From Comamonadaceae bacterium (GTDB taxonomy: Bacteria > Pseudomonadota > Gammaproteobacteria > Burkholderiales > Burkholderiaceae_C), in assembly GCA_008080595.1 (NCBI GenBank), contig VIKI01000012.1:32735-85228 (forward strand): 52,494 bases of DNA, written 5' to 3'. Positions 35,459-49,026 of this stretch are shown in pieces. Under the pieces are notes generated by a model, which was not told the DNA's origin, did not search any database, and worked only from the letters and a program-made list of their open reading frames with translations. The translations under genes were made by a program, and so were the position numbers. The first letter of the stretch is position 1; each line of letters opens with the position of its first letter.

Positions 35459-36820
35459 TCAAGCTTCGGCGCTGGACTGATGCCGCCGCCACACCATGAC
35501 AATCGCACCCAGCAGCAGCGGCAAGGTCAACAATGCCCAGAGTTCGCCCTGGTACAGCGCATAGATCAGAAACCGCAGTTGGTGCCCGCCATCGGTAAAG
35601 GCGGTGATCTGGCCCAGCCCGGCGGAGTTGAACGACGGGGTCTGGGCCGCCAGCTGGGTGAAGAGCGGAGCCAGCTTGGAGGAGATCAGCAAAAACGTGA
35701 TGATGACCGGCACGCCCGCCACCACGGCGCGAAACACGTTGCCGCGAAAAATCAGCACCGACAAGGCCATGACCGAGATCAGGTTAGGCAAATCACCCAA
35801 TGGCAAGACCTTGTTGCCGGGCAGCACCAGCGCAATCGGCACGGCCAGTGTCATCAGGATCAAGCCGGTGACCATGACCGCCTTGTGGTGCATCAAAAAG
35901 CCGGTGTCCATAGCCACAATCAGATTCTTGCGATGCGGAAAAAACCTGGTGACCTGGTCACGCAAGGCCACGGTCACGGGCATCATGGCATCGCCAATCA
36001 GTCCGGCACTCTTGGGCAGCAAAAACATCACGGCGGCAATGTGCACCGCCAGTTCCAGCGTGGCCCCCAGGCCATAGCCCGCAGCCGCGGCCAGGGCCAG
36101 ACCCATCAAGCCGCCAATCATCATCGGCTCGCCCAACAAGTCCAGGCCACTGACGGCGGACGGCTCTTCACCCTTGTGATGCGGGTTGTAGTTGAGGTTT
36201 TTGAGCACCGGAATGCGATCCAGCAACCAGTCCACACACACGGTGTAAGGCACGAGGCCGTTGACCGACACGGGAGAGGCCGAAATACCCACCAGACCGG
36301 TTTCGCGCTCCACATCCGAGGCGGACCACTCGGTCATCTTGAAGCAATACACCGCAATCAGCAGCACTGCCGACAAACCCAGCACCATGCTGCCACTGGC
36401 CGACATCACCAGCGCCCCGACCAGCGCAAAGTGCCAGTAGTTCCAGATGTCGATGTAGATGGTGCGGGTCCAGCCCAAAGCCAGCATGAGCAGATTGGCC
36501 GCAAGCACCAGCGGGATCGAAATCGCCGCCAGTGGCGAGGCCCAGGTGATGGCGGCCAACGGCGGCCAGCCGACATCCAGCACCGGAAAGTTCAGCCCGC
36601 GCACGCTGGTGAGCTGCTGCACTGCCGGGCTGATGTTGGCCACAAAAAAGTTGAAGGCAATGAACACCCCGGCAAAACCCGCCGCCAGGCTCACCGTGCT
36701 CAGCACCACCTGACGCAGCGGCAGCCGCACCGCCAGCGCAATGAAGAAGATGATGACGGGCAACATCACATAGGCTTTGAAACTGAAAAAGGCCGCTAAA
36801 AACTGTTGAAGAGACTGCAT
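35459..36820 (-). CDS. PTS galactitol-type EIIC (GatC-like) permease, orphan
   Basis: 453 residues from ATG 36820; the frame is open to 36931 but that part is intergenic-like and contains a dispersed repeat. About ten to twelve hydrophobic helices, beginning LQQFLAAFFSFKAYVMLPVI. The segments MLALGWTRTIYIDIWNYWHF, GEPMMIGGLMGLALA and AVMFLLPKSAGLIGDAMMPV are as I recall them in GatC/SgcC-type EIIC proteins. No EIIA, EIIB, HPr or EI gene is in the window. It may work as a non-PTS transporter linked to the dienelactone hydrolase. The family call rests on remembered sequence. Confidence 0.75.
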   Translation of the reverse strand: MQSLQQFLAAFFSFKAYVMLPVIIFFIALAVRLPLRQVVLSTVSLAAGFAGVFIAFNFFVANISPAVQQLTSVRGLNFPVLDVGWPPLAAITWASPLAAISIPLVLAANLLMLALGWTRTIYIDIWNYWHFALVGALVMSASGSMVLGLSAVLLIAVYCFKMTEWSASDVERETGLVGISASPVSVNGLVPYTVCVDWLLDRIPVLKNLNYNPHHKGEEPSAVSGLDLLGEPMMIGGLMGLALAAAAGYGLGATLELAVHIAAVMFLLPKSAGLIGDAMMPVTVALRDQVTRFFPHRKNLIVAMDTGFLMHHKAVMVTGLILMTLAVPIALVLPGNKVLPLGDLPNLISVMALSVLIFRGNVFRAVVAGVPVIITFLLISSKLAPLFTQLAAQTPSFNSAGLGQITAFTDGGHQLRFLIYALYQGELWALLTLPLLLGAIVMVWRRHQSSAEA

Positions 36821-36850
36821 GAATGATTGGAATGAAGGATTCTGAATTGT

Positions 36851-36899
36851 GCTACATATTTTATAGCTGTTTGCGCATGATTTGATTGCGCCAGAGGTC
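36851..36899. repeat. Small Comamonadaceae-type dispersed repeat
   Basis: GCTACATATTTTATAGCTG followed by TTTGCGCATGATTTGATTGCGCCAGAGGTC, in the gap between the HxlR and PTS-type permease genes. Its end (GCGCCAGAGG) matches the copy at 34683-34731. Confidence 0.6.
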
Positions 36900-36927
36900 A
36901 AAAAGCTTACAAGTTCTGGGGTCGCTC

Positions 36928-37314
36928 TCACAATGCCTCATGCCGGGGTGGTGGCACATAGGCGGCGCGGGCATCGCGCACCTGCTGGTGATTTTGCTCG
37001 GCCCACTGCAGCAAGTTGCGCATCGGCATTAAAAATGACTGCCCCAGCGCGGTCAAAGCGTAGTCCACCCTTGGCGGCACGGTGGCGTGTGCGGTGCGCT
37101 GCACCAGACCATCTTGCTCCAGGCGGCGCAGGGTTTGCGACAGCATGCGCTGCGAAATATCGCCAATGGTGGTTTTGAGCACACTGAAACGCAAGCTTGA
37201 ATGATCACTGAGGGTGAACAGCACCAGCATGCTCCAGCGGTCGCCCATGCGCTCAAGCACGTCGCGGATCGGGCAGCGCTCGGCCCAATCAACTTTGGAT
37301 TTGTGTACGGCCAT
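36928..37314 (-). CDS. HxlR-family regulator (QorR/YtfH-like)
   Basis: 128 residues with the HxlR signature: CPIRDVLERMGDRWSMLVLF (Cys14 is the position used for thiol sensing in several HxlR proteins), then FSVLKTTIGDISQRMLSQTL and the wing RTAHATVPPRVDYALT. It is divergent from a QorB-like quinone reductase, the same pairing as ytfH-qorB of Escherichia coli. Redox or quinone-responsive repression of the neighbouring gene is likely by analogy. Confidence 0.85.
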   Translation of the reverse strand: MAVHKSKVDWAERCPIRDVLERMGDRWSMLVLFTLSDHSSLRFSVLKTTIGDISQRMLSQTLRRLEQDGLVQRTAHATVPPRVDYALTALGQSFLMPMRNLLQWAEQNHQQVRDARAAYVPPPRHEAL

Positions 37315-37341
37315 GGTTTTTCCTTTGCAACAGGGTGATCA

Positions 37342-37367
37342 ACCTGGTTACCTCAAGGGAACCAGGT
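37342..37367. promoter_or_regulatory. Inverted repeat between hxlR and qorB-like genes
   Basis: ACCTGGTTaCC-TCAA-GGgAACCAGGT: 11-base arms with one mismatch pair around a four-base loop, 27-53 bp upstream of the HxlR start. A plausible operator for the regulator; a hairpin role is also possible. Confidence 0.55.
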
Positions 37368-37509
37368 GACTTTCAAGACCCTTCTTGTTTTTTCGTTCTC
37401 AGCCCGTACCATACCATTAGCAACGAACAAAGTGAATATTAGTATTGAATAAATACCGACTTTCCAACGCTGCGTATTTCGCTTTATTTCAACTCAAAAG
37501 GATCTTGAC

Positions 37510-38400
37510 ATGACTTCTACCCTGCTCGTGACCGGCGCATCTGGCCACCTGGGCCAGCGCGTGATTCACCACCTGCTGGAAACCCTGCACGTGGCCCCCG
37601 AGCGCATCATTGCCACCACCCGCAAGCCCGAAACCCTGCAAGCCCTGGCAGACCAAGGCATCACCGTGCGTGCGGCAGACTTTGACGACGCTGCCTCGCT
37701 GCGCCAGGCCTTTGCCGGCGCTGATCGCCTGCTGCTGATCAGCACCGACGCGCTGGATCGCCCCGGTCGCCGCTTGGCGCAGCACCAGGCTGCGGTGGCC
37801 GCCGCCGAACAAGCTGGTGTGGCCCATGTGGTGTACACCTCAATGCCGCTGCCCGACAACTCTCCCCTGCTGATCGCTCCAGATCACGCCGGTACCGAGA
37901 AAGCATTGGCCAACAGCACGCTCAAGGGCTGGACGGTGCTGCGCAACCACTGGTATTTCGAGAACCTGTTCATGTCTCTGCCAAGCGCCTTGGCCATGGG
38001 CCAGTGGTTCAGCGCGGCAGAGCAGGGCAAGATCGCTCACATTGCCCGCGACGACCTGGCCCGCGCTGCGGCCACCGCGCTGGCCAGTGATGCGGCAGGC
38101 AAAACCACCTACACCCTGAGCGGGACTGAGGCCTTCACCACCGAGCAAATCGCCCAGAGGGTGTCGCAGGCCGTGAACAAACCGCTGCAAGTGGTGCCTG
38201 TGCCGCTGGCGGGCTTGATCCAGGGCATGGTGGGCGCAGGCTTTCCCGCGCCACTGGCTGCGGTGTTTGCCTCGTTTGACACCAACACTGCGCTCGGGCG
38301 TGTGGCCGAAGTCACGGGCGATTATCAAAAACTCACCGGTGTGACACCACAGCCGTTTGCAGACTGGCTGGAGCACAACGCAGCCGCATTGGCTGCGTAA
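37510..38400 (+). CDS. qorB: NmrA-type NAD(P)H:quinone reductase (QorB-like)
   Basis: 296 residues. Rossmann motif TGASGHLGQ (about 8-16), RAADFDDAASLRQAFAGADR (atypical-SDR acidic loop), VVYTSMPLPD and NHWYFENL, which are features of the QorB/YtfG branch of NmrA-like reductases. Expected role: two-electron reduction of quinones with NADPH, protecting against quinone toxicity, which fits an organism that degrades aromatics. Divergent HxlR regulator. The ribosome site (AAAAGGATCTTGAC) is clear. Confidence 0.82.
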   Translation: MTSTLLVTGASGHLGQRVIHHLLETLHVAPERIIATTRKPETLQALADQGITVRAADFDDAASLRQAFAGADRLLLISTDALDRPGRRLAQHQAAVAAAEQAGVAHVVYTSMPLPDNSPLLIAPDHAGTEKALANSTLKGWTVLRNHWYFENLFMSLPSALAMGQWFSAAEQGKIAHIARDDLARAAATALASDAAGKTTYTLSGTEAFTTEQIAQRVSQAVNKPLQVVPVPLAGLIQGMVGAGFPAPLAAVFASFDTNTALGRVAEVTGDYQKLTGVTPQPFADWLEHNAAALAA

Positions 38401-38410
38401 TCACGCGGCT

Positions 38411-38562
38411 TCAGCGGGCGTAATCCAGCGGCAGCGCGGTGGTCAACTTGATCTCTTCCATGGCAAAGCTGGGGCTCACGTTGGACAACTCTACCGAGCG
38501 GATCATCCGCCGGTAGACCGCGTCAAAGGCGGCGACATCGCCCGGCATGGCAACTTCAGGTG
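38411..38562 (-). pseudogene. C-terminal remnant of an Lrp/AsnC regulator
   Basis: The minus-strand frame ending at 38411 reads ...GDVAAFDAVYRRMIRSVEL, then SNVSPSFAMEEIKLTTALPL, which is the end of an Lrp-family RAM domain (compare the SSFVMKEIKYTTALPL-type ending of many Lrp proteins). Nothing upstream of about 38562 resembles the rest of the protein, and the break coincides with CAGACTGCCTGATCCGG (38563-38579), a sequence like the end of the 163-bp MITE-like elements. The frame continues to 38677 by chance. Between here and 38836 I see no other gene. Confidence 0.7.
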
Positions 38563-38836
38563 CAGACTGCCTGATCCGGTGCAGACCACCGCAGTTGGCA
38601 TCCCACTGCGCAAGGCCAATACACAGCATCAGCCTCACCGATGTCTCACGAAGGAAATCCCTACAAGCACCAGCCAATCCCTACATCAAAATCAAGATTT
38701 CCTGACAGACCAAACAGCTGATTTCATCTAGCATTCGCGACGATTTGTTACATCACGACGAGCAACAAATTTCCAGAAACGTAAGCAGCCAATGGCATTG
38801 GCCATGTCGAATCAGTTGAAAAAAGGCAAATACCCC

Positions 38837-38908
38837 ATGTGGAAACTTGTAGTCGTAGTTGGCATCGTCGTCCGCCATGTCACAACACCACGAAACGCCA
38901 ACAAATGA
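38837..38908 (+). CDS. Possible 23-residue leader peptide coupled to the REC-GGDEF gene
   Basis: ATG 38837 opens a 23-codon frame that begins MWKLVVVVGIVV and ends in a basic tail (TTPRNANK). Its TGA overlaps the ATG of the diguanylate cyclase gene (ATGA), and AAAAAAGG lies about 11 bases upstream, whereas the cyclase itself has no clear Shine-Dalgarno. The layout suggests translational coupling, or a small membrane peptide. Only sequence supports it. Confidence 0.45.
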   Translation: MWKLVVVVGIVVRHVTTPRNANK

Positions 38909-39921
38909 AACAAGAGGCGATTTTGTGTGTCGATGACGACATCACCATTCTGAACGCCCTGCGAACGCTCTTGAGCAAGCAGCTAGACCGCAACCAGGTG
39001 GTGGTGGTTGCGGAAAGCGGGGCTGAGGCGCTGGAGATCATTTCCGAATTAGGGGAGGATGGCATTGCCTTGTCAGCCGTCATCTCTGACTACATCATGC
39101 CGGGAATGAAGGGTGACGAGCTTCTGGTTCAGCTTCATCAGTTGCTGCCACAAGCGTTCAAGATCATGCTGACCGGCCAAAGCGACCTGCAAGGGGTCAA
39201 GCGTGCAATCAACGAAGCCAATTTGTACCGGTTTCTTGAAAAACCTTTCAACAACACCGATCTGACCATGACGGTGCAGGGGGCGACCAAGGCGTTCCGG
39301 CAAGAGCAGGAACTGGAACGCAGCCATCTGGAACTCAAGCGCCTGAACGAAGAGCTGGCACACCATAACGCCCTGCTGGAACAGGCAGTGCAAGAGCGAA
39401 CCCAGGAGCTGCTTGAGAAAAATCGGGAGTTGGAACACCTGTCCACAACCGATCGCTTGACCGGCCTGTGCAACCGCATGCGGCTGGATGCCGTGGTGGC
39501 CGAGGAGATTGCACGCAACCAGCGCTACCAAAGCCCGTTCTCGGTGATCCTGCTCGATATTGACAAATTCAAAAGCGTCAACGACAGCTTTGGCCATCAA
39601 GCGGGCGACAGCCTGCTGATCGAGATTGCGCAGGTACTGGGCAAACAAATCCGTGTCACCGATGTCGTGGGGCGCTGGGGCGGGGAAGAGTTTTTGGTGG
39701 TGTGTCGCGAATCGCCACTGGACGTGTCACACCACATTGCAGAAAAACTGCGCCAAGCCATTGAACGCATTGACTTTGCCATTGTGGGCGGGCGAACAGC
39801 GAGTTTCGGGCTTGCCGCTTATCAGGCCGGCGAGTCCGCCCACGCCCTGCTGGCACGCGCGGATCAGGCGCTGTACCGCGCCAAGAACCTGGGCCGCAAC
39901 CGCGTGGAAGTCGCCGATTGA
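38905..39921 (+). CDS. Response regulator diguanylate cyclase (REC-coiled coil-GGDEF)
   Basis: 338 residues from ATG 38905. REC domain at 5-125 with acidic pocket VDDD, phosphoacceptor in ISDYIMPGMKGDEL and switch Lys in RFLEKPF. A heptad-rich coiled coil (about 135-185) joins it to a GGDEF domain with the active motif WGGEEF and an inhibitory I-site (RVTD, five residues before). So it should make c-di-GMP when phosphorylated and be product-inhibited. It heads the oxidase operon and is related in its REC part to the single-domain REC protein at the operon end; the GAF kinase there is the likely phosphodonor. Confidence 0.9.
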   Translation: MKQEAILCVDDDITILNALRTLLSKQLDRNQVVVVAESGAEALEIISELGEDGIALSAVISDYIMPGMKGDELLVQLHQLLPQAFKIMLTGQSDLQGVKRAINEANLYRFLEKPFNNTDLTMTVQGATKAFRQEQELERSHLELKRLNEELAHHNALLEQAVQERTQELLEKNRELEHLSTTDRLTGLCNRMRLDAVVAEEIARNQRYQSPFSVILLDIDKFKSVNDSFGHQAGDSLLIEIAQVLGKQIRVTDVVGRWGGEEFLVVCRESPLDVSHHIAEKLRQAIERIDFAIVGGRTASFGLAAYQAGESAHALLARADQALYRAKNLGRNRVEVAD

Positions 39922-39950
39922 ACCTCATTTCCAAAGAAAAAGGCCATCCC

Positions 39951-41219
39951 ATGAATCACTCAAACGAAAAAGAGAGCACATCCCTGGGCCTGTTTGGCCG
40001 ACTGTATGGCCAAAGCCCGTCCAAAGAGGATTTGCGTGCGGCAGCCCAGCTGGCCATCCAGGTGGAGATGACGACCATTCCGGCCTACCTGACCGGCATG
40101 TATTCCATTGCCGAGCCCAACAGCCCGGCCTACCAGACGCTGCGCGACGTGGTGATGGAGGAGATGCTGCACGTCACCCAGGCGGCCAACTTGCTGGTAG
40201 CGATTGGCGGTCTGCCCGTGTTCAGCGGCGACGCGGCCCCCCAATACCCCGGCTATTTGCCCCATGCCAACCCGAAGACGACACCGGTGGTTGGCTTGTT
40301 GCGTGCCACACCCGAGGTGTTTGAAGAGGTCTTTGTGGCCATCGAAACCCCTGCACCGGTGGGAGCAAAACCCCAAGCTGACCAATACGACACCATTGCC
40401 CAGTTGTATGACGCGCTGGAAAAGGGCCTGGAGCAATACGCTCTGCTGCACCCCGATGATTCGCTGTTTGAACCCAACCCGCTGGGCCGCCAGCGCGAAG
40501 ACATTTACATCGGCAAATTTGGCGGTGACCCGGTGCTGGTGACCGACATGGAGAGTGCCAAAAAAGGCATTCAGCAAATCAAGCAGCAAGGCGAAGGCAG
40601 CCAATCCCTGGGGCAGCCCTTGAATCCGATCAACACCTGGGCCACCTACGACCACTACGGCAAGCGCACCGACTGCACCTACGGCCCGATCATCGGCACG
40701 CCACTGGAAATGTCGCACTTCATCAAGTTTCGCCAGGTGGCGGTTGAGCCGGAAAAGTTTCCATCGACCTATCCGATGACATCGAACCCGCGCCGCGAGG
40801 ATTTCAAAAATCCCACGGCCTCTGCGCTGGCCGATCTATTTGACCAGGCCTACAGCCTGATGCTGGATACATTGCAGCTTAGTTTCCGCAAGCCGCTTCA
40901 AGAGGGCGCAAGCGGCAATGTGTTCTTCAGCACGGCCCTGCCGCTGATGCACCAAACCATGCCCATCCTGGCACGCATGTTGATGAACACCCCGATCAAC
41001 TGCACCGGCAACAGCCAGACCGGCCCCAATGGTGCGCCGACCTTCCTGTACCAGTCCGGGGCCAGTCTGGCGCAATTGCGCTCTGGCATTGAGCAACTGA
41101 TTGCAAGCGGCGACCTGAGCCAGGAAGACAAGCTGAAGCTGCAAAACTGCATCGATTTCATTGCCGATGGGATTGCCGCCCATGTGTGCCCTGGGGCAGC
41201 CCAGGGCCACCATTCCTGA
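39951..41219 (+). CDS. Ferritin-like domain protein (VioB/RebD-type fold)
   Basis: 422 residues from ATG 39951 (AAAAAGG upstream); TTG 39918 overlapping the previous stop is a weaker choice. Residues 20-130 carry a ferritin-like helical pair with metal-ligand candidates: AAQLAIQVEMTTIPAYLTGM and VVMEEMLHVTQAANLL (Glu and ExxH). This is the domain shared with iminophenylpyruvate dimer synthases such as VioB and RebD. The C-terminal 200 residues contain more helices and QTMPILARML. It lies between the cyclase and the quinoprotein oxidase gene (22 bp to the latter), so a role in cofactor maturation or in substrate or peroxide handling is likely but unproven. Confidence 0.8.
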   Translation: MNHSNEKESTSLGLFGRLYGQSPSKEDLRAAAQLAIQVEMTTIPAYLTGMYSIAEPNSPAYQTLRDVVMEEMLHVTQAANLLVAIGGLPVFSGDAAPQYPGYLPHANPKTTPVVGLLRATPEVFEEVFVAIETPAPVGAKPQADQYDTIAQLYDALEKGLEQYALLHPDDSLFEPNPLGRQREDIYIGKFGGDPVLVTDMESAKKGIQQIKQQGEGSQSLGQPLNPINTWATYDHYGKRTDCTYGPIIGTPLEMSHFIKFRQVAVEPEKFPSTYPMTSNPRREDFKNPTASALADLFDQAYSLMLDTLQLSFRKPLQEGASGNVFFSTALPLMHQTMPILARMLMNTPINCTGNSQTGPNGAPTFLYQSGASLAQLRSGIEQLIASGDLSQEDKLKLQNCIDFIADGIAAHVCPGAAQGHHS

Positions 41220-41240
41220 TGCCCTGCCCCAAGGAGAGAC

Positions 41241-43097
41241 ATGATGATTGAATACAAAATTTTCCCTGCCATCGGCATTGCCCGTCTCGGTAACGCACCA
41301 GAAAAGTTTTACATTGGCCCGGAAAAATACCGTGGCCTGCCCACCCTGCCCGACGGCGGGGAGGTAAAAGAAGACGACCTGCGTGATGCGCAAGGGCGAA
41401 TGAGCCGCCAAGCGGCCAGGTTCCAGGTTTACAAGGTGCAGGATGGCATCGAGACACCGCTGTCACTGGGTGCTGCCGGCATCAAGTCCATCACCTGGCG
41501 GGTGCATCTGGCCAACAAGAAACCGAGCTGGTACGAGTTCCAGACTTCCATAGGCGAGAACGGCTATGCGTCCAATCACCCACTGCGCAATGCCCACATC
41601 AAGGGAGACGCGCGTCACAAGCTGGTGATTGATCCGGGGCCGCGGGTGATCGGCTGGGCGCAGGATGGCACGGTCAAGTTCGACAAGGCCAGCGTGCCCG
41701 CAGAGTACCAGGGTGCACATTTCCCGCCAGCGAATTTGCAGCCCGGCAACCTCACCATCGACTGCCTGGGAGAGCTGCGCACCGACGGCCATGGCGGCTT
41801 GCTGGTGCTGGGCGGCTTTGGCAAATCGGGCTCCACCCAGCCCGACCCCAATGCCAACAGCTATGCCAACAACGACGACTGGTGGGACGACACCTCAGAC
41901 GGCTCGGTGCAGGCGCGTATCGAGTTCAACGACGGCTCGGTGCTCAATGCCACGCCCGCTACGGTACTGGCCACCCTGCCGGCCTTCGCACCGCAGATTC
42001 CCAGCCTGGTGACGCTGTACGACACCATGTTCGATGCCGTGGTGCGCAACGGCAGTTACCCGGAAATTTACGACAACGGTCTGTGGAAGTCCGGCAAGGA
42101 CGGTTACTGGCCCGATTTCAGTACCGAGATCCAGCCGCTGCTGGAGCGCGGCATGCTCTACCCCTGGGTGGTGGCGATTCCCTCCAAGCCCCACAAGTTC
42201 GACTTTGCCATGCTGGGGGCGACGCAAGTTGTTGATGGCATCACACAAGGTTCCCTCGCCTACAAGGGCATGCGCCAGTACGTGCTGGACTTCCTGCGCC
42301 CCCCGGGTGCGGAGGACGTGATCATCAAGTCCGCCGACAACCAATCCGGCACGTCCCGGCGCAGCGGTGTTGGTGCCACCATGATGCCGTTTCTGGCGGG
42401 CGACAACACACTGTTTCCCGGCCACGGCTACAGCCACTACCTGCGCCTGACCGACACCCAATACCTGTTCCTGCAACAGTGGGCAGACGGCTGGTTCAAG
42501 GTGACCAGCGCTGACGAAGTGGCCAGTGCGGCCAAGTGTCAACCTGGCAGCGCTGTAACCCGCGCGGTGCTGGACAACTGCGTCGGCGGCTCGTTCCAGC
42601 CCGGCATGGAGATGAACTGGATTTCGCGCAACCCGGCGATCTATGCCGCGCCCTTGCGCGTGCGCTCCCACTTCGTTGTCACCGGGCCGCTCAGCCTCAA
42701 CTTCGATCCCCAGCGTGGCATGGAACCGGGCGACCTGACCCGCTACATGGCCGTGCCATGGCAGGCTGATTTCAACGAATGCTCATCCGAGCACATCGAT
42801 GGCCGGGTGTTGTGGTGGTGGCCCGCGCAACGACCGGTCAACGTTTACCTGCAACCGCTGCCCGACAAAGCCAAGAACCTGCCCGAGCCTCCCGGGCAAC
42901 AACTGGCCGGTCGACAAGTGGCCTGGGTGGGCATCGACTTTGACCAGAAAGCCAGCAACTATGTCATGTACGGCGACAACATGGAGATGGTGAAGAACTG
43001 GTCGAATCTGGGTTTCGTGATGGGCAAGCAGATTGACGGCGAACAGCAGTTTGTGGAGGTGGCTCGCCTCCCTCCACGCTGGTGGAAAAAATCGTAA
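41241..43097 (+). CDS. LodA/GoxA-family quinoprotein oxidase (probable CTQ cofactor)
   Basis: 618 residues; AAGGAGAGAC directly precedes ATG 41241 (ATG 41244 equally possible). The opening IEYKIFPAIGIARLGNAPE is the LodA-family hallmark. The two residues that would form cysteine tryptophylquinone are present: Cys447 in LDNCVGGSFQPG and a tryptophan of the WWW run 525-527 in RVLWWWPAQRP. Known members (lysine epsilon-oxidase LodA, glycine oxidase GoxA) deaminate amino acids with oxygen and release hydrogen peroxide and ammonia. No signal peptide is visible. Substrate is not predictable. The LodB-like flavoprotein needed for cofactor formation is encoded 12 bp downstream. Confidence 0.9.
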   Translation: MMIEYKIFPAIGIARLGNAPEKFYIGPEKYRGLPTLPDGGEVKEDDLRDAQGRMSRQAARFQVYKVQDGIETPLSLGAAGIKSITWRVHLANKKPSWYEFQTSIGENGYASNHPLRNAHIKGDARHKLVIDPGPRVIGWAQDGTVKFDKASVPAEYQGAHFPPANLQPGNLTIDCLGELRTDGHGGLLVLGGFGKSGSTQPDPNANSYANNDDWWDDTSDGSVQARIEFNDGSVLNATPATVLATLPAFAPQIPSLVTLYDTMFDAVVRNGSYPEIYDNGLWKSGKDGYWPDFSTEIQPLLERGMLYPWVVAIPSKPHKFDFAMLGATQVVDGITQGSLAYKGMRQYVLDFLRPPGAEDVIIKSADNQSGTSRRSGVGATMMPFLAGDNTLFPGHGYSHYLRLTDTQYLFLQQWADGWFKVTSADEVASAAKCQPGSAVTRAVLDNCVGGSFQPGMEMNWISRNPAIYAAPLRVRSHFVVTGPLSLNFDPQRGMEPGDLTRYMAVPWQADFNECSSEHIDGRVLWWWPAQRPVNVYLQPLPDKAKNLPEPPGQQLAGRQVAWVGIDFDQKASNYVMYGDNMEMVKNWSNLGFVMGKQIDGEQQFVEVARLPPRWWKKS

Positions 43098-43109
43098 GCA
43101 CAGCGGCCG

Positions 43110-44207
43110 ATGCAGCAGGCAGACGTGTTGATTGTGGGCGCAGGCCCAGCGGGCTCAGCGACGGCGCTGGGCTTGCTGGCCGCGGGCTGCAAACGGGTGG
43201 TGCTGGTCGATCATGCCTCGGCGCGGCCTGTGGCCGCCGGGGAGTCCGCCACGCCGGACGTATCCGCCATGCTGGGTGCACTCGGGCTGGAGACTGATCT
43301 GGGCCGTCTCGGGCATGCGCCTTGCCAGGGCACGGTGTCCCTTTGGGGTTCCGATGAACCGTCTTTTGACTACTTCCTGGCGCGGGGACGCGGACACGGC
43401 TGGCATCTGCGGCGCAAAGAATTTGATGCATGGCTGCGGCACGAGGCGCAGCAACGCGGAGCCGTGTTGCTCAGCCCCGCCCGCTTGATGGCTTGTGAAA
43501 CGCTTGAGTCCGGCTGGCGCGTGAAGGTAGGCAGCCGCACCGATGCTTCGCTGACGGAGATCAGGGCTCGGGTGTTGGTGGATGCCGGGGGGCGGCGTGC
43601 ACCTTTGGCCACAAGTCTGGGGGCGCACTTGCGTGAGATGGATAGTCTGGTCGCACTGGCCATGCTCACCGACTCAGCACCAGCCTTGGCCGGTTTGTCC
43701 CTGGTGGAGTCTTTTGCCCATGGCTGGTGGTATGCCGCTGGTCTGCCCGGGGGCAAGACCATGGTCATGCTGATGACAGATCGGGATCTGGCCAAAGCCT
43801 GCAATTTCCATGAGCCTGCCGTGTACCTGGATACCTGGCGGGCCACCCGCCGACTGGCCGCGATGGTGCCGCCCACTGAGACCGGTGTCATCGCCCCCTT
43901 TGCCGCACACAGCGCCTTTCTGGATCGGGCTGCCGGGCCGGGCTGGATCGCTGTGGGAGATGCGCTGCTGGCCATGGACCCACTGACCTCGTCGGGCATT
44001 GCCGGGGCTTTGAGCGATGCGCAGGCCGCCGTGTTGGCCATCGTCGCGCAATTGGCCGCAGACGATGCCCCCAGCCGGGCCTATGCGGAGCGCGCCAACC
44101 GCAACCTGGTCGCGTATGTGGACGGCCTGCGACACCATTACAGCCGCGAATGCCGATGGATGGAAAGCCCGTTTTGGGCAAGAAGACAAACAAGGAAAGA
44201 AGGATAA
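43110..44207 (+). CDS. LodB-like FAD-dependent maturase
   Basis: 365 residues. N-terminal FAD-binding motif VLIVGAGPAGSATALGL, then GESATPDV, VLVDAGGRR and the second FAD motif GDALLAMDPLTSSGIAGAL, as in tryptophan halogenase and LodB-type flavoproteins. LodB partners hydroxylate the precursor tryptophan so that the CTQ cofactor of LodA can form. The tandem order LodA-LodB is the rule for this family and supports the identification. The halogenase WxWxIP motif is absent. Confidence 0.87.
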   Translation: MQQADVLIVGAGPAGSATALGLLAAGCKRVVLVDHASARPVAAGESATPDVSAMLGALGLETDLGRLGHAPCQGTVSLWGSDEPSFDYFLARGRGHGWHLRRKEFDAWLRHEAQQRGAVLLSPARLMACETLESGWRVKVGSRTDASLTEIRARVLVDAGGRRAPLATSLGAHLREMDSLVALAMLTDSAPALAGLSLVESFAHGWWYAAGLPGGKTMVMLMTDRDLAKACNFHEPAVYLDTWRATRRLAAMVPPTETGVIAPFAAHSAFLDRAAGPGWIAVGDALLAMDPLTSSGIAGALSDAQAAVLAIVAQLAADDAPSRAYAERANRNLVAYVDGLRHHYSRECRWMESPFWARRQTRKEG

Positions 44208-44212
44208 AACAC

Positions 44213-45835
44213 ATGCAGCAATCAGAAAAAGCCATGGGCGGGGTGCCAACCCAATCCCTGCAACAAGCACAGCAATTGATGGAGGCCATCGTGCGAGCCC
44301 AGTCGGAGTTCATCCGGGAGGCAGACCGCCGCAAGGCGTTTGACCTGCTGCTGGCGGACATCCTCGCGCTGTCGGGCAGCGAGTATGGCTTCATCGGGGA
44401 AGTGCTCTACCAGCCAGACGGCCAGCCTTACCTGAAGACCTACGCCATCACCAACATTGCGTGGAACGATGCAACCCGTGAGTTCTATGAGAAAAACGCC
44501 CCTAACGGCCTGGAGTTTTTCAACCTGAAAACGCTGTTCGGCAGCGTTTTGACGAGTGGGCAGCCGCTCATCGCCAACGACCCCTACACCCACCCCAAGC
44601 GTGGGGGGCTGCCCGAGGGGCACCCCCACATGAGCGCCTTTCTGGGGCTGCCGGTCCACCACGGGGAAGAGATGGTCGCCATGATGGGTATTGCCAACCG
44701 CCCTGCTGGCTATGACCAGGAAGTGATTGATTTCCTGCGGCCCCTGACCTCCACCATCGGGCAGCTGGTGGTGGCGACCCGTATCCAACGCAAAAATGAG
44801 CAGGTTCAGCTCGAAATCGTGCAACTCAACCGCGATTTGGAACACAAGGTGGAGGAACGCACCCGCCAACTCGTCCAGGCGGAAAAGATGGCCTCTCTGG
44901 GCCAACTGGTGGCCAATGTGGCGCACGAAATCAACACCCCCATCGGTGCGGTGAAATCCAGCGCAAAAAACATCTCCGACTCCCTGTCTCAGGCCCTGCA
45001 CCATCTGCCCCAACTGTTCCAGCTGCTGTCGCCCGAAGAGGAACGCCTGTTCATTGCGCAGATCGAAAAATCCAGCATTCCAGGGCCGTCGCTCAGCACC
45101 CGGGAAGAGCGTGCTTTGGTGCGCGAACTGAGTGCTGTGCTGGAGGGGCATGGCGTGCAAGAGGCTCGGTACAAAGCCGGGTTGCTGGTGCAGATCAAGG
45201 CGGATCGCGAGGTCGAGAAGCTATTGCCTTTGCTGCTGCACCCCAAGGCCGATTTCATTCTTGACACCGCCTACAGCCTGGCCACCATCGCCAGCAACAC
45301 CGAAAACATCAACACCGCCGTGGAACGGGTGTCAAAGATCGTGTTCTCGCTCAAATCGTTCTCGCGCGTGGACCCGACCGCCGAGCTGGTGGCAACCAAC
45401 CTGCAAGACAACCTGGAAACGGTTCTCACCATTTACCACAGCCAGATCAAGCAAGGTACGGAACTGGTGCGCCGTTTTGCTGACACGCCCACCATCATGG
45501 GTCTGCCCGATGAGCTCAACCAGGTCTGGACCAACTTGATTCACAACGCCCTGCAAGCCATGGATTACAAGGGGGTGTTGACCGTGTCGATCCAGCAAGA
45601 GGGTAACGATGCCGTGGTGTCGGTGGAGGACAGTGGCTGCGGCATTCCAGATGCCGTGCTGCCGAAAATTTTCGAGCCTTTCTTTACCACCAAGCCGGTC
45701 GGGGAAGGCAGCGGGCTCGGTCTTGACATCGTGAAAAAAATCATTGAACGGCATCAAGGCCGCATCGTCGTGAACAGCACCGAAGGCCAGGGATCGGTGT
45801 TCAAGGTCTATCTGCCCTGCACCAAGGAGGCCTAA
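44213..45835 (+). CDS. Soluble GAF-domain sensor histidine kinase
   Basis: 540 residues from ATG 44213 (AAGGAT 8 bases upstream, 5 bp after the LodB-like stop). No transmembrane helix. A GAF-like domain spans about 35-205 (LLADILALSGSEYGFIGEVL, FLGLPVHHGEEMVAMMGIAN). A coiled coil leads to the H-box VAHEINTP (His238). The N-box IHNALQAM (Asn445) is 207 residues away instead of ~110, because of an inserted helical region (about 260-360). G-boxes GCGIP and GSGLGLDIV complete the ATPase. It probably reads a soluble signal, perhaps made by the oxidase, and phosphorylates the adjacent REC proteins. Confidence 0.88.
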   Translation: MQQSEKAMGGVPTQSLQQAQQLMEAIVRAQSEFIREADRRKAFDLLLADILALSGSEYGFIGEVLYQPDGQPYLKTYAITNIAWNDATREFYEKNAPNGLEFFNLKTLFGSVLTSGQPLIANDPYTHPKRGGLPEGHPHMSAFLGLPVHHGEEMVAMMGIANRPAGYDQEVIDFLRPLTSTIGQLVVATRIQRKNEQVQLEIVQLNRDLEHKVEERTRQLVQAEKMASLGQLVANVAHEINTPIGAVKSSAKNISDSLSQALHHLPQLFQLLSPEEERLFIAQIEKSSIPGPSLSTREERALVRELSAVLEGHGVQEARYKAGLLVQIKADREVEKLLPLLLHPKADFILDTAYSLATIASNTENINTAVERVSKIVFSLKSFSRVDPTAELVATNLQDNLETVLTIYHSQIKQGTELVRRFADTPTIMGLPDELNQVWTNLIHNALQAMDYKGVLTVSIQQEGNDAVVSVEDSGCGIPDAVLPKIFEPFFTTKPVGEGSGLGLDIVKKIIERHQGRIVVNSTEGQGSVFKVYLPCTKEA

Positions 45836-46248
45836 TGAAAAAGGGAATCTTGTTATGTGTGGACGATGAGGGAGTCGTTCTGAATGCGTTGAAAGATCAA
45901 TTGCGCAAGGCTTATGGGGCCAAACACGTGATCGAAGTGGCTGAAAGTGCCGAGGAAGGCTTGGAAATTCTCGACGAACTGGTGGATGGCGGCTACCTGC
46001 CCCTGGTGATCATTTCTGACTGGTTGATGCCACGCATGAACGGCGACGAGTTTCTGATTGAAGCGCACAAGCGTTTTCCCCATGTCATCAAGATCATGCT
46101 GTCCGGCCAGGCCGACGAACACGCCGTGCAGCGAACCCGGGAGCTTGCCAACCTGCACCAATTCATGGCCAAACCCTGGGAGCCCGACCAGTTGATCCGC
46201 TGCATCAACCAGGGGCTTGAGATGTTCTACCAGAAGACATCGGCCTGA
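45835..46248 (+). CDS. Single-domain response regulator (REC)
   Basis: 137 residues; its ATG overlaps the kinase stop (TAATG) and has the ideal AAGGAGG four bases before. Acidic pocket VDDEG, phosphoacceptor in ISDWLMPRMNGDEF, Thr/Ser position in IMLSGQ, switch Lys in FMAKPW. No output domain. The sequence is close to the REC part of the diguanylate cyclase at the head of the operon, so it may act as a phosphate sink or relay between the GAF kinase and that cyclase. Confidence 0.9.
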   Translation: MKKGILLCVDDEGVVLNALKDQLRKAYGAKHVIEVAESAEEGLEILDELVDGGYLPLVIISDWLMPRMNGDEFLIEAHKRFPHVIKIMLSGQADEHAVQRTRELANLHQFMAKPWEPDQLIRCINQGLEMFYQKTSA

Positions 46249-46385: not shown

Positions 46386-47354
46386 TTAAAGATCAAGCAC
46401 CAGTTGCGCCGTCTTGGCCCGTGAACAGCAGGGCAAAAACTGGTCGTTGGCGGCCTGCTCTTCAGGGGTCAGGTACTTGTCTTTGTGATCTGGCACACCT
46501 TCAAGCACGCGGGTCAGGCAGGTGCCGCACACACCTTGCTCGCAAGCCGTTTGAATTTCCACGCCAGCGGCTGACAGCGCCTGGGTCACGGTCTGGTCTT
46601 TGGCCACGGGGATGATGCGCCCGGAGCTGGCCAGCTTGATGTCGAAGCTGGCATCGGCCTCAGAGTGGCTCACCTCGGCGGCAAAGAATTCGTAATGCAG
46701 TTGGGTCTCGGGCCAGCCTTTGTCCCGTGCGGTTTGGAGTACCGCATCCATGAAGCCCTTGGGGCCGCAGACATAGAGGTGGCAGCCCGCTTGGGGCGCA
46801 CTCAGCAGCACACCCAAATTGAGCTTTTGCTCGGGTGCGCCATCGTCAAAATGAAACTGCACCTGGTCGGCAAAGCTTGATGCCGCAATCCGCCCGCGAA
46901 ACGCGGTGCGCTCAGGGGAACGGGTGCAGTAATGCATCTCAAAGTCGGCACCCATCACCGCCAGGCGCTCGGCCATACACAGGATCGGCGTGATGCCAAT
47001 GCCCCCCCCCAAGAGCAAACTGTGTTTGGCATCATGTGCCAGCGCAAAGTGGTTTTTTGGGGCGCTGATTTGCAATACCTGGCCCTCTTGCACCAGGTCA
47101 TGCACTGCCAGCGAGCCGCCACGTGAAGCGGGGTCGCGCAGCACGCCAATCAGGTAGCGGTGGGCTTCCTTCGGGTCATTGCACAGCGAGTACTGGCGTG
47201 TCAGGCCGCCGGGCAGGTGCACATCCACATGCGAGCCCGCAGAAAAGCCGGGTAGCGCTGTGCCGTCTTGCGCGACCAGCTCCAGCGTACAAATATCGGC
47301 GGTTTCCATGGCCTTGTGTGCCACACGAACCGTGAGTGTTGAGGCCTGGCTCAT
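46386..47354 (-). CDS. vanB: Vanillate O-demethylase reductase subunit VanB
   Basis: 322 residues from ATG 47354, four bases after the vanA stop. Domains in order: FMN/FAD-binding barrel with RQYSLCND (about 56-63), NAD-binding domain with LLLGGGIGITPIL and YVCGPKGFM, and a C-terminal plant-type 2Fe-2S ferredoxin (CEQGVCGTC plus a later Cys in LPCCSRA). This layout is that of class IA phthalate-dioxygenase-type reductases. It passes electrons from NADH to VanA, which demethylates vanillate to protocatechuate and formaldehyde. The frame upstream of 47354 overlaps vanA and is not used. Confidence 0.93.
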   Translation of the reverse strand: MSQASTLTVRVAHKAMETADICTLELVAQDGTALPGFSAGSHVDVHLPGGLTRQYSLCNDPKEAHRYLIGVLRDPASRGGSLAVHDLVQEGQVLQISAPKNHFALAHDAKHSLLLGGGIGITPILCMAERLAVMGADFEMHYCTRSPERTAFRGRIAASSFADQVQFHFDDGAPEQKLNLGVLLSAPQAGCHLYVCGPKGFMDAVLQTARDKGWPETQLHYEFFAAEVSHSEADASFDIKLASSGRIIPVAKDQTVTQALSAAGVEIQTACEQGVCGTCLTRVLEGVPDHKDKYLTPEEQAANDQFLPCCSRAKTAQLVLDL

Positions 47355-47358
47355 GGCA

Positions 47359-48390
47359 TCACGCTCCCACAGTCGTTGAGGCCTGCTCGGCGGCCAGGAT
47401 GCGCTCAATGATCTTGCGAGACTGCACGCCACCGGCATCGATGTTGAGCATCAGCAAGGCCCGCTCGGGGTGGGCCAGCAGGTTCTTTTGCTGACGCTCC
47501 AGCATCTCCAGGTCTTCGCCAAAAATCTTGCCCTGACCTTCGCGGATGGTGGCGGTGAGGGCCTTGTCGGTCGGGTTGAACTTGCGGGCCATACCCCAGA
47601 AGTAGTGGATCGAGGTTTCGGTCTCAGGGGTGATGAAGTCCACCACCACGCTGTAGGCCTTTTTGTCGTTGGGCGCGTCATAGCCGCCGTGGCCCTGGTG
47701 CGCCACACCCACCTCGATCATCACGTGGCTGGGCGGGGTGAAGCGGCAGATTTGCCAGCGGTCTACCGGCACATCATCGGCCAGGTTGTTGGCCCGCAGC
47801 GCAGCTTTCCAGAATGGCGGGGGCAGGATGCCGCTCATGAAGCGGCTGGTCACCACCATGTCGCCCTCGACCGTGGTCTTGCACGGGGTCTCGTCAATTT
47901 CTTTCTGGCCGATGCTGGTGGAGTGCACATAGGTTTCGTGCGTCAAGTCCATCAGGTTGTCGATCATCAGGCGGTAATCACAGGCAATGTGGTACAGGCC
48001 GCCACCGTAAGCCCACTCGGGGTTGTCGTACCACTCCATGTGCGGAATCTTGGCCTCATCGGCCAGGGCGGCATCACCGGGCCAGACCCAGATAAAACCG
48101 TAACGCTCAACAACGGGATAGGCCTTGATGGCTGGAAAACCACGCACGCGCTGGCCCGGCATGGCAATGGTTTTGCCCTGGCAACCCATTTCCAGGCCGT
48201 GGTAGCCACACACCAGCTTGCCCTCGGAGACATAACCGAGCGACAAGGGTGCACCACGGTGCGGGCAGAAGTCTTCCACCGCAGCCACCTTGTTTTCTTC
48301 ACCGCGATAAAAAGCGATGCGTTCGCCGCAGATGGTGCGGCCCAGTGGTTTTTCGTCAATTTCGTTGGGCGTGGCGGCTCGTTGGTTCAA
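47359..48390 (-). CDS. vanA: Vanillate O-demethylase oxygenase subunit VanA
   Basis: 343 residues. The start is TTG 48388-48390, with AGGA five bases upstream; no in-frame ATG or GTG precedes it before a stop. The Rieske motif is CPHRGAPLSLGYV ... CGYHGLEM (about 41-67). The mononuclear iron ligands lie in NLMDLTHETYVHSTS (His, His) with the bridging Asp. The C-terminus NIDAGGVQSRKIIERILAAE is characteristic of VanA. Usual VanA proteins begin with an N-x-WYVA segment that is absent here; the protein starts at ATPNEI. The substrate should be vanillate. Operon with vanB. Confidence 0.92.
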   Translation of the reverse strand: MNQRAATPNEIDEKPLGRTICGERIAFYRGEENKVAAVEDFCPHRGAPLSLGYVSEGKLVCGYHGLEMGCQGKTIAMPGQRVRGFPAIKAYPVVERYGFIWVWPGDAALADEAKIPHMEWYDNPEWAYGGGLYHIACDYRLMIDNLMDLTHETYVHSTSIGQKEIDETPCKTTVEGDMVVTSRFMSGILPPPFWKAALRANNLADDVPVDRWQICRFTPPSHVMIEVGVAHQGHGGYDAPNDKKAYSVVVDFITPETETSIHYFWGMARKFNPTDKALTATIREGQGKIFGEDLEMLERQQKNLLAHPERALLMLNIDAGGVQSRKIIERILAAEQASTTVGA

Positions 48391-48434
48391 ATAAGTCCTG
48401 CAATTTGATCGCAGGGGTGATAGGCTGCAAACTT

Positions 48435-48452
48435 CATTCAGTATGCTGAATG
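48435..48452. promoter_or_regulatory. Palindrome upstream of vanA, probable MarR operator
   Basis: CATTCAG-TATG-CTGAATG, seven-base perfect arms, 45 bp upstream of the vanA start and between vanA and the MarR gene. A second, looser ATTC...GAAT pair (48455-48471) follows. Confidence 0.65.
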
Positions 48453-48504
48453 TGATTCATTGTACGGAATGACTGCGCGCAATACCAGCCTGATTTACTC
48501 AGGA

Positions 48505-48981
48505 TTAACCCTTGGTTGTGGCCTCGTTCAGTTTGTTTTGCGAGTCATTCAAATGCACAAACTTGCGCAGCAGACGCATGAACTCGCGCTGCTCTGTGCC
48601 ATCCAGGCTGTCCATCATGCCCAGGTACATCTGCTCTATCCCTAAGCGCATGCCTTGCAAGACCGCCTCACCCTCCGGGGTCAGCGACAAGCTACGCTGG
48701 CGGCGCGGCAACACCTCACGCAGTATCCAGCCCTTGGCTTCCAGCCGGGTGGCAATGTCGGCGGTGCTGGAGGTGTCGAGTGCAATCAGTTGCGCCAGCG
48801 TGACCTGATCCACACCGGGCGATTCAAACAGCGTGCGCAACACGGCGTACTGAATCGGCGTGACCTGGCGGCCATGCACCTCATGAAACTTCGACACCGC
48901 AATTTGCTGAGCGCGGCGAATCAGGTGGCCGGGCTCATCATAGAGCGTGAAGACAGGTGCTTGGGTGGTGGCTTGGATCAT
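48505..48981 (-). CDS. MarR-family regulator, probably of vanAB
   Basis: 158 residues. Winged helix: TPIQYAVLRTLFESPGVDQV, LAQLIALDTSSTADIATRLE and the wing LREVLPRRQRSLSLTPEG. It precedes vanA on the same strand with a palindrome in the gap. VanR proteins known from Pseudomonas and Acinetobacter are GntR-type, so a MarR type here is a different solution. Repression relieved by vanillate or a related acid is inference. It is also divergent from ohrR (81 bp apart). Confidence 0.85.
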   Translation of the reverse strand: MIQATTQAPVFTLYDEPGHLIRRAQQIAVSKFHEVHGRQVTPIQYAVLRTLFESPGVDQVTLAQLIALDTSSTADIATRLEAKGWILREVLPRRQRSLSLTPEGEAVLQGMRLGIEQMYLGMMDSLDGTEQREFMRLLRKFVHLNDSQNKLNEATTKG

Positions 48982-49026
48982 GGCCGAATTTTGCCCGAAG
49001 GCCTGATGTGCTCAATCATGACAATC

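Follow-up and report, generated by a model that had tools for sequence, protein, structure and literature searches.

Gene content of the locus

The window, a stretch of 52,494 nucleotides from the draft genome (322 contigs, 89% complete) of a Comamonadaceae bacterium (assembly GCA_008080595.1, contig VIKI01000012.1, 85 kb), contains a block of six genes in which a LodA-like quinoprotein oxidase, a LodB-like maturase and a ferritin-like protein are enclosed by genes for phosphorelay and cyclic di-GMP (c-di-GMP) signalling. The six genes, in order, are:

38905..39921, + strand: REC-GGDEF diguanylate cyclase (338 aa; PF00072 + PF00990)
39951..41219, + strand: PF12902 ferritin-like protein (422 aa; Pfam profile match)
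41241..43097, + strand: LodA-like quinoprotein oxidase of the cysteine tryptophylquinone (CTQ) type (618 aa; PF17990 + PF18417)
43110..44207, + strand: LodB-like flavin adenine dinucleotide (FAD) maturase (365 aa; NCBIfam LodB/GoxB/QhpG, all below cut-offs; PDB matches)
44213..45835, + strand: soluble GAF-HisKA-HATPase histidine kinase (540 aa; Pfam, ATG start at 44213)
45835..46248, + strand: single-domain response regulator (REC; 137 aa; Pfam)

The intergenic gaps, read 5′ to 3′, are 29, 21, 12, 5 and −1 bp, bearing out the original prediction of six tightly spaced plus-strand genes of these families, and the block is one operon, presumably read as a single transcript. Its start had been placed at 38837, at an ATG that proves not to share the cyclase's reading frame; the open reading frame of the cyclase opens at a GTG (38839), and the ATG at 38905, which adjoins the REC domain, is the likely start.

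The oxidase has both LodA domains, LodA_N and LodA_C (217.8 and 123.4 bits, above the cut-offs). C514 aligns with C516 of LodA (2ymw/3weu), and D510, C514 and W527 are identical in 39/39 aligned LodA-like rows; the phmmer alignment piece carrying the Trp is not significant by itself. C514 and W527 are the CTQ cofactor pair of this predicted oxidase, and they stand approximately 50 residues closer together than the pair of LodA (C516, W581). Against the equivalog models the protein scored 345.1 bits for lysine 6-oxidase (NF038172, cut-off 600) and 230.6 bits for the glycine oxidase GoxA (NF038173, cut-off 750); since it falls below the NF038172 cut-off, we do not call it a lysine oxidase. The LodB-like protein likewise reached 229 bits against NF038171 (equivalog cut-off 400), and its GAGPAG motif and the position of its gene next to lodA fit a LodB-type maturase; its PDB matches are flavin halogenases and the peptidyl tryptophan dihydroxylase 7ctq.

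The arrangement is like that of Marinomonas mediterranea LodA/LodB and other group I oxidases in having both LodA domains, the CTQ Cys/Trp pair and a LodB-like gene directly downstream, and differs in adding the ferritin-like gene and the surrounding signalling genes. Identity to fetched LodA-like proteins outside its own branch is 27–42%. The oxidases of Chromobacterium group IC are 57–60% identical to it (P0250, P0275), which would place the window oxidase in that group, and the Chromobacterium ferritin-like protein is 54% identical to the window's (P0036).

The ferritin-like protein matches PF12902 with 132.3 bits. Its candidate metal ligands are E39, E71xxH74, E132 and E253xxH256, and the pattern E/ExxH/E/ExxH is invariant in 57/57 aligned rows, so that the protein is likely to have an intact diiron ligand set.

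A ferritin-like/LodA/LodB triad marks one LodA branch

To place this gene among LodA loci in general, stretches of 5–22 kb around 31 of them (L002–L007, L075–L099; only part of the LodA matches listed) were scanned with the ferritin-like profile. At all ten loci whose LodA was at least 44% identical to the window's, a ferritin-like gene lay directly upstream of lodA on the same strand; at the remaining loci, below 44% identity, the profile found one in 0/21. LodB follows 3′ of LodA in 9/10 triad loci (partial in L003, at a contig end), and in the tenth, L005, the contig stops before it. Hosts include Janthinobacterium, Ideonella, Oceanobacter, Tahibacter, an acidobacterium, a cyanobacterium and two Azospirillum plasmids. 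In a LodA tree of 39 rows (30 loci, the fragment L091 having been dropped, plus the window and eight database proteins) the ferritin-like gene occupies one side of a single branch, with support of 100/98, against a mean of 9.3 changes when shuffled. Moreover, 43 contig sizes appear in both sets of protein-database matches, those of the ferritin-like protein and those of LodA (120 listed for each), although short sizes may coincide by chance. Ferritin-like protein, LodA and LodB are thus a conserved triad that marks one branch of LodA.

Known LodA/GoxA units had been described in the original prediction as consisting of the oxidase and LodB, which is incomplete: Campillo-Brocal et al. (2015) report fungal PF12902 genes near lodA and lodB, and group ID operons with additional genes (PMC4417212). 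Of the literature searched, a single paper mentions both LodA and a ferritin-like protein, and its available text places such a gene beside lodA only in fungi. The fungal group V clusters resemble the window in having a PF12902 gene near lodA and lodB, but there lodA and lodB are in opposite orientation, and the available text of that account does not mention signalling genes (PMC4417212).

What the ferritin-like protein does may be approached through its relatives. With a limit of E≤1, the VioB profile TIGR04492 matches 36 of the 57 aligned ferritin-like rows, the best at 1.1e-7, and the window protein itself only partially (E 0.025, 12.3 bits, against a cut-off of 1250). This argues for remote kinship only with VioB, an imine-dimerising enzyme: the protein is not predicted to be a VioB iminophenyl-pyruvate dimer synthase. 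The likely diiron site and this kinship suggest a role other than the handling of peroxide or iron or the maturation of the cofactor. It is possible, if somewhat short of an even chance, that the protein is a VioB-like imine-processing enzyme, the triad then being a short pathway whose product the GAF domain of the kinase senses. Among the 120 relatives listed, three are named ‘iminophenyl-pyruvate dimer synthase’, and a GMC oxidoreductase gene lies upstream of PF12902 in 2/4 distant plasmid loci that were opened, one of the four having been chosen because its listing already showed the oxidoreductase. Set against this are the E value of only 0.025 for the window protein and the length of the VioB profile (approximately 1000 residues). 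VioA–VioB and RebO–RebD, which we take to pair an amino-acid oxidase with a PF12902-related protein (for VioB the profile match was computed here), would differ in joining a flavin oxidase to a far larger partner, whereas the window joins a quinoprotein to a short diiron-type protein.

Alternatively, the ferritin-like protein could serve, next to LodB, as an additional factor in CTQ maturation, as its position directly upstream of lodA in 10/10 fetched loci of one branch and its sharing of an operon with LodB might lead one to expect. We consider this rather unlikely. LodB is sufficient for LodA maturation; the ferritin-like gene is absent from the 21 other fetched LodA loci, and CTQ enzymes as a whole therefore have no need of it; and its homologues also stand beside oxidoreductases of another kind. 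LodB, for its part, is needed for LodA (PMC4417212).

PF12902 genes are also found outside triads. On Rhizobium and Bradyrhizobium plasmids (L146 and L149) they lie directly 3′ of an annotated GMC oxidoreductase, which in L149 is a short piece only, and Rhizobium accounts for 114/164 plasmid records matched by the ferritin-like protein. The window's own genome encodes a second PF12902 protein, of 710 aa, on another contig (L159, C90:8467-9063); LodA is present in single copy. Downstream of the Janthinobacterium triad is an iron redox protein of the Haem_oxygenas_2 type (PF14518; L002:13361-14110), a domain reported to be fused to some LodA proteins (PMC4417212).

The signalling genes form a recurring module

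The first gene of the block encodes a REC domain with phospho-acceptor D62 and a GGDEF domain with GGEEF at 259–263 and RxxD at 250–253, five residues before GGEEF. In diguanylate cyclases these two motifs are the active site and the inhibitory site, respectively, and with GG(D/E)EF and a phospho-acceptor REC both present the protein is a predicted diguanylate cyclase. The phospho-acceptor of the kinase is His238 and that of the single REC is D62; the latter protein is 41% identical to the cyclase REC (BLASTP, 134 residues, E 7e-37).

Among 399 sampled genomes of the family, at least 13, the window's own included, match the kinase with E≤1e-60, a lower bound since three candidates were scored per genome. 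Nine of the 12 others carry 16 kinase-core matches at 13 loci (L120–L132), and three have the GAF part only. At all 13 kinase-core loci a cyclase-type REC (≥145 bits) lies within two genes of the kinase; at seven of them it belongs to a REC-GGDEF protein like the window's, and at L123 to a longer one with a divergent GGDEF. Conversely, searching the nine genomes with the cyclase recovered seven full-length relatives (342–382 bits, 53–58% identical), all at kinase-core loci, the next full-length matches scoring approximately 140 bits. REC-GGDEF protein, kinase core and single REC are therefore a recurring module, and the proposal that the kinase is the partner of the REC proteins is much strengthened: gene neighbourhood argues strongly for predicted phosphotransfer from the kinase to both.

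These loci share with the window the kinase core (50–61% identical), the cyclase type and single RECs, and differ from it in having no oxidase: LodA, LodB and the ferritin-like gene were found at 0/13. Outside the core, the seven kinases that were scanned with Pfam (from L120, L121 twice, L122, L124, L129 and L132) have other GAF, PAS, CHASE or TPR domains, or none found. In both L127 and L128, cyclase and kinase are separated by a solute-binding protein, so the place that the triad takes in the window can hold an input protein.

Two further features of the module deserve mention. In the kinase and its relatives a long stretch separating the H box from the ATPase domain is conserved (45020–45505 in the window); Pfam HisKA covers only approximately 40 residues. 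The L121 cluster is compact: beside a kinase, a single REC and a REC-GGDEF protein it has another kinase from this core family, one with a CHASE domain.

For the GAF domain of the window kinase, a weak alignment with DosS/DosT (E about 5e-4) puts His137 at the place of the DosS proximal haem ligand, His149 (the ligand, and the five-residue tag that reconciles the numbering, are given in PMC4082495). Were haem bound there, the kinase might act as a gas or redox sensor, reporting O2 depletion, NO or oxidation arising from the oxidase. His137 is kept in 6/6 aligned GAF rows; the place of the distal Tyr171, however, is taken by Gly, and the GAF domains of PtsP and PDE5 match the model better than DosS does. 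We regard such a sensor as improbable, and putative haem binding as a lead only.

Probable recurrence and origin of the combination

Evidence that triad and signalling module occur together elsewhere comes from database matches (best 120 listed for each protein). The two nearest relatives of the ferritin-like protein are 83% and 77% identical to it, and the two nearest kinases 89% and 82%; at the next kinase listed, identity drops from 82% to 50%. Among these nearest relatives, a contig size of 340529 is stated for both a ferritin-like protein and a kinase, and a size of 9079 for a ferritin-like protein, a kinase and a LodA, the last being the second nearest LodA match (83%). Judged by these equal sizes, the combination of triad and kinase probably recurs in two other contigs. 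The expectation that other genomes keep these genes together is to that extent supported, by two contigs with ferritin-like and kinase relatives (77–89%), one of them also with LodA.

Closer to home the operon is rare. LodA was found in the window's own genome and in none of the other 88 of 89 genomes of the genus; of 60 genomes searched with the cyclase (up to 35 candidates scored in each), again only its own gave a full-length match with E≤1e-40. The surroundings are:

36927..38391, strand not assigned: flank A, HxlR regulator and NmrA-like gene (blastn to L150, L151, L152)
38401..38904, + strand: region upstream of the block, presumed promoter site (sigma-70 scan negative)
46386..49004, strand not assigned: flank B, reductase, Rieske oxygenase and MarR (blastn to congeners)

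No sigma-70 consensus site was found in the upstream region (38401–38904). The order in the window is flank A, operon, flank B; three congeners without the operon (L150, L151 and L152) have flank B followed by flank A, and three further congener stretches have one flank only. The operon and its upstream region thus occupy a rearrangement junction. Because LodA is absent from 88 genomes of the genus and the site is rearranged, the operon was probably gained as a unit. Relative to L152 the window also has an extra gene, for a phosphotransferase system (PTS) EIIC-GAT permease (35459–36931).

Proposed coupling of the oxidase to c-di-GMP

We put at about even chances the reading that two older modules have been brought into one operon in which the kinase couples the state of the oxidase to c-di-GMP. 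LodB would mature the CTQ oxidase of the triad, which would use O2 to deaminate an amine or an amino acid, with an imine or aldehyde, H2O2 and ammonia as products. The ferritin-like protein, of diiron type, would probably act in the oxidase reaction or on the imine product. The module of kinase, REC and REC-GGDEF protein encloses the triad, and its soluble GAF kinase would read a state made by, or feeding, the oxidase (a ligand, redox or O2). Autophosphorylated at His238, the kinase would pass phosphate to D62 of the cyclase and to D62 of the single REC; the phosphorylated cyclase would raise c-di-GMP, with the single REC as a competitor or a second output. Oxidase activity and biofilm state would thereby be set together. 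Phosphotransfer, the signal sensed and the physiological direction are all matters that we infer. A more elaborate version, in which a cytosolic oxidase and a VioB-like diiron partner make the very signal that a possibly haem-binding GAF kinase reads, as a self-contained enzyme-coupled sensor committing cells to or from a biofilm, we hold to be doubtful.

There is background for such coupling. LodA-like proteins, including the one from Chromobacterium violaceum (group IC), are a source of H2O2 in biofilms and take part in biofilm differentiation and dispersal (PMC4417212), and M. mediterranea LodA is under the control of the PpoS/PpoR two-component pair (PMC8523701), so that there is precedent for tying such an oxidase to signalling. 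In the literature searched we found no precedent for such a tie within one operon with a cyclase, and no paper linking LodA-like oxidases to c-di-GMP. Immediate upstream neighbours were scanned at nine of the fetched triads (L096 left out), and in two a phosphorelay gene of another kind lies upstream on the same strand: a REC-Hpt protein 246 bp from the triad in a Janthinobacterium lividum metagenome-assembled genome (L002:5493-6476), and, immediately 5′ of a triad from the window's own bacterial family, a hybrid kinase of PAS-PAS-HisKA-HATPase-REC architecture (L075:12472-15291). As kinases are common, this is suggestive rather than proof.

Several points weigh against the coupling reading. 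The original prediction looked to a conserved gene order across LodA homologues: this held for the ferritin-like gene at the close loci, whereas a relative of the window's REC-GGDEF protein or kinase core was found beside the triad in 0/10 other fetched triad loci, the nearest approach being one distant GGDEF gene approximately 5 kb from the triad in L006. With the triad lacking the cyclase and kinase core there, and the 13 kinase-core loci lacking LodA, neither module needs the other, and co-location could mean co-regulation only. The recurrence itself depends on equal contig sizes, of which short ones (3948 and 3964) coincide by chance in the same lists, and the nearest LodA of all (90%) is on a contig of a different size, 10367. 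Finally, the assembly is a draft in 322 contigs, so there is a small chance that the rearranged site was misassembled.

On a reading of co-regulation only, the triad would have been inserted in a signalling operon and would borrow its promoter, the kinase responding to a signal unrelated to the oxidase. The separate occurrence of the two modules fits this, as does the presence of GAF relatives (51–64% identity) in unrelated multi-domain proteins. However, of the 120 kinases listed only two exceed 80% identity, the next being at 50%, and both have contig sizes in common with ferritin-like relatives; had the insertion been a chance event, one would not expect to find it kept in relatives whose proteins are only 77–90% identical. 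On balance we think it unlikely that co-regulation is all there is.

The coupling reading thus remains the one that we prefer. The locus is a real operon composed of two modules of known kinds, which are probably kept together in a few lineages. PF12902 proteins are a regular partner of one LodA branch, and as a LodA-like oxidase, a predicted c-di-GMP enzyme and a small soluble kinase share an operon here, a link between oxidase and c-di-GMP would be directly testable.

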